Source of the DNA: Candidatus Gastranaerophilales bacterium
GTDB lineage: Bacteria; Cyanobacteriota; Vampirovibrionia; Gastranaerophilales; Gastranaerophilaceae
Length of the DNA: 32,540 nucleotides
Direction of reading: 5' to 3'
Assembly (NCBI GenBank): GCA_944325655.1
Contig: CALVAW010000021.1
Span: 1-32,540 of the forward strand
Positions 19,277 to 21,253 of the stretch are shown here, piece by piece. How positions within the stretch are numbered: position 1 is the stretch's first letter; each line of letters opens with the position of its first letter. The notes below the pieces were generated by a model. It did no database searches, was not told where the DNA came from, and saw only the letters and a program-made list of their open reading frames with translations. The position numbers were made by a program, and so were the translations under genes.

Positions 19277-19342
19277 AAATTTGCTCGACAAATAAAACAA
19301 ACGCAAATTTCAAAAAGCATAGTCTGTTTGTAAAACAAATGC
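19277..19342 (+). promoter_or_regulatory. Repeat-containing leader of the SLH protein gene
   Basis: AAATTTGC (19277-19284) and GCAAATTT (19303-19310) are perfect reverse complements. TAAAACAAACGC (19293-19304) recurs as TAAAACAAATGC (19331-19342), 11 of 12 identical. The second copy pairs locally with TTTGT just before it. The element precedes an AAAGGAGG ribosome site. I found no convincing -35/-10 pair. It may be a structured, stabilising 5' leader or a set of operator sites. Confidence 0.4.
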
Positions 19343-19360
19343 TACATAAAAGGAGGAAAA

Positions 19361-21253
19361 ATGACTATCAAAAGAAGACTATTAAAAGGCGCTACAATCA
19401 GCTTATGCGCATTAGCCTTAACTGTTCCTATGACATTTGCAGCATGTCCTGTTGCAGAAGATTGCGGTTGCAATAACAATTCAGAAATTGTAACCCCGGA
19501 TAATGCTACTTGTTCAAAATGTAAAAAAGCTGATTGCGACTGCAAAAAGAAAAAAAGCAAGTGTGACCCTTGCGAAACCCAAAAAACAGATTGCGGATGC
19601 GAAGAACAAAAATCAGATTGCGGATGTCCTACAGGTGGTGCTGCTCCCTGTGAAGAGTGCAAAACCTTAAACCAACAAACATACGCATACCCTAATGCAA
19701 TTTATTCAAATTCAAATCAGGCGCAAGTCGGAGAAAGCAGCAACAATACTCAAATCAATGATTCATTATTAAAACCTTGCTACAAAGGTGTCCCTGTTGA
19801 ATGTGGATGCCCTACAGGCGGAGCAGCACCTGTTATTGATGCAGATGCTATGCCAAAATATGATTGTGATGCAGCTCCAAATGTACATTCTACAACAACA
19901 ATGGATATTATCAAAAAAACAACCGAACCTTGTGCTTGCATGGGCTTTACTGGAGCTGCAGCGGATATCACCGCTCAACAATATCCCGATGTATTTGACA
20001 GCTACTGGGCAAGCTCCGATATAAACCGTTTAACTGAAGCTTGTGTTCTTGAAGGTTATCCTGACGGATTATTCAAACCAAACAGAAAAGTATCTCGTGC
20101 TGAAATGGCAACAATGGTTGTAAAAGGCTATAATCTTGATATGACATCCGGTTGTGACAACTTAACATTCAAAGACGTACCACAAAACCATTGGGCACAC
20201 AGCTATATTTCAAAAGGCGTATCTGAAAATATGATAGCAGGCAAAGGTAATGATATGTTTAAACCAAATGAAAACATTTCAAGAACCGAAGCTTTAACTA
20301 TAATGTCAAAAGGCCTAAGCTGTCCTATGGATGAAACAAAAGCAGATCAAATTCTTTCAAAATATAAAGATGGCTCTCAAGTTCCATGCTGGGCAAGAGA
20401 ATGTGTAGCAAAAGCTATTGACAATGGCGCACTTAAAAATGAACGAAACCAAGATTATATCCGTCCTAATGACAAAACAACTCGTGCAGAAGCAAGTGCT
20501 ATGTTACAAAACATAAGAGTTGCAGGCGGATATGACAAATCAACCAAAACCGCATCTCAAGACCTTGGCGGAAAAACATTCATGGAAAGAGAAACAAGAG
20601 TAACAATTCCTACACTTCAATTATCCATGAACGATATAATAAATGCAAAACATGCCAATGTCGGCGAACAATTTAGCGCTACAACTTTAAATGAAATTAC
20701 CATTAACGGACAAACATTCCCTTGCGGTTCAACAGTAAGAGGTAAAGTAACCGAAGTTACACGTCCTTCTAAAAATGAACAAGGTTCGCTAAAACTTTCA
20801 TTTAATGAAATTATTAATTGCGACGGATGTAAAGCACAACTGCCTCAACAAATTTTAACTGCCAGAGTAGAAAGACAAAAAGAAATTAATGGTTTGTTAA
20901 GATTAGTTCAAATGCCGTTTACTTGGACAGGTTCATTAATTGGTACCGCAGGCAGAACAATCGGCGGAGCTGCTATCGGTATTTCAAATGCAGCAGAAGC
21001 ATTACTTGATCAAACAGGTGTAGGCACATCCGAACTTCTATCCGGTAAATTCAAAGCTGCCGGCAGAAGCTACCAAGATGGTCTGAAAACTGCTTTCAAA
21101 GCTCCTGTTGACCTTACAAGAACTGCTTTATCAGGAACAATGGGCTTATTCCAAACAACAGGTGATGAAATTGCATACCTTGTTGACCCCACAGGAAATC
21201 CTATTTCCAAAGTTAACCCGAAAGAAAAAGTTACAATTGCTTTCGGACAATAA
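19361..21253 (+). CDS. Exported cysteine-rich SLH-domain protein
   Basis: A 630-residue cell-surface protein. The signal peptide (about 1-28) ends TVPMTFA. A cysteine-rich segment follows (about 29-100, e.g. CSKCKKADCDCKKKK). The decapeptide CGCPTGGAAP occurs at 87-96 and again at 148-157. Three S-layer homology domains follow at about 208-258, 267-320 and 332-388, with FKPNRKVSRAEMATM, FKPNENISRTEALTI and IRPNDKTTRAEASAM. The C-terminal 230 residues form an unrecognised domain (VTIPTLQLSMNDIINA, then a glycine-rich IGTAGRTIGGAAIG stretch). SLH domains bind secondary cell-wall polymer or, in cyanobacteria-like envelopes, peptidoglycan, linking the outer envelope to the wall. The C-terminal region contains no porin strands I can be sure of. 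A strong ribosome site and terminator suggest high expression. Confidence 0.9.
   Translation: MTIKRRLLKGATISLCALALTVPMTFAACPVAEDCGCNNNSEIVTPDNATCSKCKKADCDCKKKKSKCDPCETQKTDCGCEEQKSDCGCPTGGAAPCEECKTLNQQTYAYPNAIYSNSNQAQVGESSNNTQINDSLLKPCYKGVPVECGCPTGGAAPVIDADAMPKYDCDAAPNVHSTTTMDIIKKTTEPCACMGFTGAAADITAQQYPDVFDSYWASSDINRLTEACVLEGYPDGLFKPNRKVSRAEMATMVVKGYNLDMTSGCDNLTFKDVPQNHWAHSYISKGVSENMIAGKGNDMFKPNENISRTEALTIMSKGLSCPMDETKADQILSKYKDGSQVPCWARECVAKAIDNGALKNERNQDYIRPNDKTTRAEASAMLQNIRVAGGYDKSTKTASQDLGGKTFMERETRVTIPTLQLSMNDIINAKHANVGEQFSATTLNEITINGQTFPCGSTVRGKVTEVTRPSKNEQGSLKLSFNEIINCDGCKAQLPQQILTARVERQKEINGLLRLVQMPFTWTGSLIGTAGRTIGGAAIGISNAAEALLDQTGVGTSELLSGKFKAAGRSYQDGLKTAFKAPVDLTRTALSGTMGLFQTTGDEIAYLVDPTGNPISKVNPKEKVTIAFGQ

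Follow-up and report, generated by a model that had tools for sequence, protein, structure and literature searches.

A short linear motif, TG[AG]AA(P), recurs in the linker of an SLH envelope protein of the Gastranaerophilales: it is real, it is under selection, it is present across the order, and in some genera it is common to small Cys/Pro-rich proteins as well. The protein of departure, 630 amino acids long, is encoded on the forward strand by the open reading frame 19361-21253 of the window, that is, of the whole stretch of 32,540 nucleotides analysed here, namely contig C21 from a draft genome of 1.69 Mb. There the motif takes the shape of a decapeptide, CGCPTGGAAP, which, judging from the sequences compared, we take to be one cysteine-framed form of the shorter, lineage-specific motif. 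The reading tentatively favoured here is that TG[AG]AA(P) serves as a docking and cross-linking cassette in an SLH-anchored envelope tether.

The coding sequence (19361..21250, stop codon at 21251-21253) is supported by the open reading frame, the SLH match and the orthologues. Its product starts with a probable signal peptide (residues 1-27, 19361..19441), recognised by eye from MTIKRR, a hydrophobic stretch and TFA followed by ACP; the orthologues start similarly. A lipoprotein cysteine at C29 (FAAC) was considered and ruled out by eye, orthologues from other families having no cysteine there. Next comes a linker with 21 cysteines (residues 28-207, 19442..19981), which holds a CxxC-x4-CxC segment, CSKCKKADCDC (residues 51-61, 19511..19543), and the two decapeptides, copy 1 at residues 87-96 (19619..19648) and copy 2 at residues 148-157 (19802..19831). 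The preliminary description had given the pair as 19619-19832; the start is right, but copy 2 stops one base earlier. It was also right in placing the Cys-rich region behind what looks, by eye, like a signal peptide and ahead of three SLH repeats, but it overlooked a third, shorter copy, TGAAAD (residues 197-202, 19949..19966), directly ahead of repeat 1. Opposite the linker, on the minus strand, runs an antisense frame of 106 amino acids (19342-19662), probably a by-product of the linker codons.

The three SLH repeats span about residues 208-390 (19982..20530). They match PF00395 in three stretches (E 7.5e-31), have solved SLH relatives, and carry, by eye, the sites VSRAE, ISRTE and TTRAE. 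In SLH domains, [ST]R[AT]E is the ligand or wall-binding motif. PF04230, a broad family that bears the name of pyruvyl transferases, is present in 56 of 58 genomes, including the window's own (G000:C17, E 2.1e-43). The occurrence of [ST]R[AT]E in all repeats together with PF04230 is consistent with a protein that binds the wall. The C-terminal domain (residues 395-630, 20543..21250) consists of a beta region followed by a Gly-rich helical stretch, and weakly resembles a VirB10-type fold.

The decapeptide does occur twice, as first noticed: the copies differ at 7 of 30 bases and in 7 of 10 codons, every change being synonymous. Ten residues is also the longest exact peptide repeat within residues 28-207, against 2-6 in shuffled sequences (n=1000). 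The synonymous codons had been taken as a sign of selection on the peptide. Two independent copies are expected to differ in 6.26 codons under the codon usage of 14 open reading frames of the window, or in 6.07 under that of SLH genes, so that seven of ten represents saturation and is by itself no evidence of selection. Seven being close to the 6.1-6.3 differing codons that random choice would give, the codon argument was rejected as evidence, but selection on the peptide is borne out on other grounds, by pN/pS.

A recent DNA duplication of the window's own two copies is unsupported, since seven of their ten codons differ. In the sibling sequence L011 (genome G004), which is 97% identical, the two copies agree at all 30 bases, for which the chance is about 8e-5 under random codon choice; here the identical DNA is compatible with a recent duplication. 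Among the 27 genus genomes that have both copies, the fraction of differing codons is 0.472 within a genome and 0.527 between copies taken from different genomes (P 0.016, with no correction for relatedness). The identity in L011 and the slightly greater likeness within genomes together make occasional conversion or re-duplication of the copies possible in the genus.

Uncorrected distances among 28 genomes of the window's genus give pN/pS values of 0.113 for copy 1, 0.081 for copy 2 and 0.038 for copy 3, compared with 0.258 in the linker without motifs, 0.166 in the SLH repeats and 0.185 in the C-terminus. Amino-acid changes are more tightly constrained in the motif copies than in the surrounding linker. 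The CxxC-x4-CxC segment, at 0.222 in the same genomes, is no more constrained than the linker. In a set of 29 sequences, seven cysteines never vary: C51, C54, C59, C61, C80, C150 and C169. The exact decapeptide is found in 11 of the 28 genomes at copy 1 and in 17 at copy 2, and TG[AG]AAP is retained in 28 and 27 of them, respectively.

The same core emerges over the order. Each of the 58 genomes examined contains some match to the SLH protein, and 54 supplied orthologues; matches in G038, G048 and G050 are weak or partial, and that in G057 was judged to be a different SLH protein. The resulting set holds 66 distinct orthologue sequences, with a truncated copy of one gene already included (L005), the paralogues L002, L003, L097 and L098, and the G057 protein (L090) left out. 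TG[AGC]AA occurs at least once in 60 of the 66 linkers, at least twice in 54 and at least three times in 47. The total is 182 against 0.24 in shuffles, a comparison among related sequences that does not amount to 66 independent tests. The motif is absent from the counted stretch in 6 of the 66, the stretch having ended early for L035 and L067. Lack of conservation in orthologues had been named beforehand as one half of the outcome that would speak against the motif, and this half does not hold; TGAA is present in all 34 less similar representatives, within the stretch up to the first SLH repeat or otherwise up to residue 300.

In these representatives threonine is nearly fixed, with 80 TGxAA to 5 SGxAA. 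Proline follows the motif in 44 of 77 cases, and a cysteine lies no more than four residues ahead of it in 41 of 77 (20.0 expected). The residues before the core vary over the order (CGCQ, CGCN, CDCP, NIT, PVT), and among the orthologue sequences compared the heptamer CGCPTGG is confined to the window's genus. Segments like CxxC-x4-CxC, by a loose pattern, are found in 22 of the 34. The initial emphasis on the cysteines as the core of the motif is not supported: the constant part is TG[AG]AA(P), the flanks vary, and a Cys-poor orthologue with 13 cysteines (L077) keeps eight copies in its linker. Cysteines appear to be associated with the motif and not needed for it, and the case of L077 indicates that the motif does not always involve a disulfide. 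Some orthologues of family f3 (L078, L087, L089) have an extra Cys-rich tail beyond the C-terminal domain, with TGAAAP in the last 30 residues.

Does the motif mark other exported proteins, as the preliminary description proposed to ask? It does so in some other genera, but not in the window's own genome. There a degenerate CGCPTGG pattern is found at two places only, both in the SLH protein, TG[AG]AAP does not occur outside that protein, and three of the seven matches to TG[AG]AA belong to it. The other four (all named by eye) look like chance: one is in a protein of no known kind that starts with MSYKND and is perhaps an exception, one in a protein resembling a transporter, one in a protein resembling shikimate dehydrogenase, and one in a doubtful frame. 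With three of the seven matches in the SLH protein and such a miscellany among the others, a proteome-wide export tag was rejected for this genome.

Over the 58 genomes, TG[AG]AAP has 134 matches in 52, and a permuted peptide has one (one permutation only); this control was preferred to the backward-read pattern, which contains CpG and is hence biased. The matches divide into 95 in frame in the orthologue, 13 on its other strand and 26 elsewhere, of which 25 were examined, the one in G057 being left out. Eleven of the 25 fall in eight small Cys-containing proteins with signal-peptide-like starts, from seven genomes (L110, L112, L113, L114, L117, L119, L123 and L126). A profile of four of these small carriers has matches in 7 of the 58 genomes; each of the seven belongs to family f3, and the window's family yields no match. 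Small f3 relatives outside the profile comprise L165, L166 and L167, which carry TGAAAC, TGAASP or TGAAVP, L169 and L172, which carry IGAAAP, and L171, with nothing similar. Relatives of L110 were sought in the other 57 genomes and none was found; nor did a search of the window's own genome and genus yield a motif-bearing partner protein. The remaining 14 matches belong to proteins of the MSYKND type (L111, L122), to a membrane-protein-like frame (L116), to larger proteins, where they sit in a linker or tail (L118 twice, L120, L121, L125, L129), and to short frames that may be chance. Since L111, L122, L118 and L129 have no obvious export signal, the motif is not restricted to exported or envelope proteins.

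Several of these carriers form groups of their own. Nine small f3 proteins (L117, L119, L123, L126, L165, L166, L167, L169, L172) are rich in Cys, Pro and Tyr, have signal-peptide-like starts and similar ends (FGFD, YLGFD), and mostly contain TGAA[AVS] or IGAAAP. L112, L113 and L114, small proteins from f4 genomes, each begin like a signal peptide, contain TGGAA several times and finish alike (RGYW, KGYW or RGLW). L118 stands for two different genes of G042 in which TGGAAP comes right after a Gly/Ser-rich linker, between unlike domains. Proteins that start with M[SA]YKND (L100 of the window's own genome, at G000:C1:114698, L111 and L122) have repeated [PT]TGGAA and no evident signal peptide; L122 matches no Pfam family above the cut-off, and likely relatives of the own-genome protein in G045 and G052, related by eye, contain TGGAAP.

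The suggestion that the cysteines go with a redox enzyme holds in part. The window's own genome encodes a VKOR fused to a DsbA domain with a CPFC motif (L109, a frame of 414 amino acids at G000:C8:24518-25651), and VKOR is present in 53 of the 58 genomes. However, enzyme and cysteines do not track each other strictly: in G029, a genome 98% complete, the orthologue contains 19 cysteines but VKOR has no match. G031, G053, G050 and G057 likewise have no VKOR match (75, 88, 66 and 90% complete, respectively). Cysteine counts are even in 38 and odd in 28 of the 66 orthologues, and thus give no clear sign of full internal pairing.

For the C-terminal domain of the window's protein, about 235 residues, Pfam has no family, and a PDB search with its profile gave no match. 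Both AlphaFold models are of low quality (mean pLDDT 36.5 and 39.2) and the linker cannot be placed in them; residues 411-500 of the first reach ten-residue means of 57-82. In VIA-align both models rank chains of type IV secretion core complexes first, with CagY, ComB10 and TrwE/VirB10 in the titles. Model 1 has 12 such rows at Z 7.3-4.3, the next unrelated fold being at 3.4; model 2 has 9 rows at Z 6.5-5.2, the last of which ties with the next unrelated fold at 5.0. The top scores of both models are within the tool's 'common' range. In the first model the VirB10-like fold includes strand 173-190, which precedes the SLH repeats. By hhalign, 26 orthologues set against 10 VirB10/TrbI sequences gave a probability of 0.15% and a score of 14.4, with at least 8 of 20 shuffled controls higher. 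Adding three paralogues raised the score to 20.3 against a maximum of 19.5 in 20 shuffles; taken singly, C57 scored above its shuffles (25.2 vs 16.2) and C26 and C1 did not. C57 also has a weak TrbI match (PF03743, E 0.012), below the family cut-off, and a plasmid search with part of it returned one irrelevant match only. The VirB10-like fold suggested by the models is a lead only, and the Gly-rich stretch 511-600 could be membrane-active. The paralogues at G000:C1 and C26 share parts of the C-terminal domain.

In the docking and cross-linking model tentatively preferred here, the SLH repeats would bind a pyruvylated wall polymer and the C-terminal domain would face or enter the outer membrane. 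Docking, of the tether either to itself or to small proteins exported alongside it, would take place in the linker through the TGxAAP cassettes, and the VKOR-DsbA enzyme would oxidise neighbouring CxC cysteines and so lock the assembly. TG[AG]AA would be what is recognised, as a docking element or a turn, with the cysteines serving as a lock that is frequent yet dispensable. In favour of this model are the low pN/pS of the copies, the order-wide core with its nearly fixed threonine, the small Cys-containing carriers, the excess of cysteines ahead of the motif, and the wide presence of VKOR and PF04230. Against it, the f3 proteins L169, L171 and L172 indicate that small relatives do not all keep the motif. 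The failure to find a partner in the own genome and genus, the carriers that seem to lack an export signal, the cysteine parity, G029, the Cys-poor L077 and the poor models also count against it. A more ambitious proposal, which is unlikely, makes TG[AG]AAP the signal by which the members of an envelope assembly common to the order recognise each other: the SLH tether and fast-evolving small exported Cys-rich proteins, locked by VKOR-DsbA, with a VirB10-like domain as the tether's end at the outer membrane.

Could the linker be a passive spacer instead, low-complexity pieces multiplied by small duplications and kept only for length or flexibility? This is unlikely, though it would suit several observations: linker length and motif copy number vary among orthologues, L064 has an additional motif copy within a short insertion, the two copies of L011 are identical in DNA, and two copies from one genome resemble each other slightly more than copies from different genomes do. 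However, the copies have lower pN/pS than even the SLH repeats and the C-terminus, and a spacer needs neither a core kept across the order nor a nearly fixed Thr-Gly. It is rather unlikely, too, that the linker binds metal, with the cysteines of CxxC-x4-CxC and CxC holding Zn, Cu or a cluster and TGxAAP forming the loops between them. CxxC, CxC and Lys-rich spacing do resemble metal-binding sequences, and the seven cysteines that are constant over the 29 sequences speak for such a site. Yet no Pfam metal-binding family is matched up to E 1, a limit that short Cys motifs may escape in profile searches; the number and spacing of cysteines change freely over the order while TGAA stays, and the CxxC-x4-CxC segment shares the loose constraint of the linker.

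A modification of the threonine, by glycosylation or otherwise, is more doubtful still. Some bacterial O-glycosylation systems use Ala/Pro-rich sites, and the present motif would suit a modification site in that it is short and nearly fixed, and lies in disordered, probably exported parts of proteins that are not related to one another. However, serine seldom takes the place of threonine, the glycine behind it is nearly fixed and would be unneeded for simple O-glycosylation, isoleucine stands at the Thr position in L169 and L172, and some carriers have no evident export signal.

The attachment of the outer membrane to the wall in diderms outside Proteobacteria is an open question, and few studies have dealt with the proteins of the cyanobacterial relatives that live in the gut. 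An SLH protein found order-wide with a conserved short motif offers a testable handle, a defined peptide with which to fish for partners, and it is a candidate substrate of VKOR-DsbA in a gut lineage. It also carries a warning: conservation is lower in the eye-catching cysteines than in the inconspicuous TG[AG]AA that adjoins them.

Literature searches for the motif strings, for Gastranaerophilales S-layer and for Melainabacteria SLH turned up no description of TG[AG]AAP in the excerpts retrieved. Several known systems bear comparison with the protein as a whole. By sequence its SLH repeats are like those of Gram-positive S-layer proteins such as Sap (PDB 6bt4 and 3pyw, E 7.5e-20 and 9.1e-20); unlike these, it belongs to a diderm host, has a Cys-rich TGxAAP linker, and showed no S-layer assembly domain. 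The VirB10/TrbI C-terminal domain is the top-ranked fold match of both models, but there is no significant sequence relation, and the SLH repeats sit between strand 173-190 and the remainder of the fold. In the outer membrane of Chlamydia, cysteine-rich proteins are linked by disulfides. Cross-linking in the envelope between a large Cys-rich protein and small ones is the shared idea, whereas here the large protein has SLH repeats and cross-linking is only putative. The SlpA/OmpM proteins, which connect outer membrane and peptidoglycan, have an N-terminal SLH domain, a coiled coil and a C-terminal beta-barrel, and Candidatus Melainabacteria are named among the holders of SlpA-like/OmpM proteins (PMC9388160). 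The present protein differs in that its SLH repeats begin at about residue 208, behind a Cys-rich linker of 180 residues, and in that its C-terminal domain has no recognised barrel: Pfam finds no outer-membrane barrel in 23 members, and the NCBIfam model por_somb gives a weak match of 46 residues (E 0.037) in the SLH part only. Both have SLH repeats, for wall binding, in a diderm, which makes a tether role plausible for the Gastranaerophilales protein.
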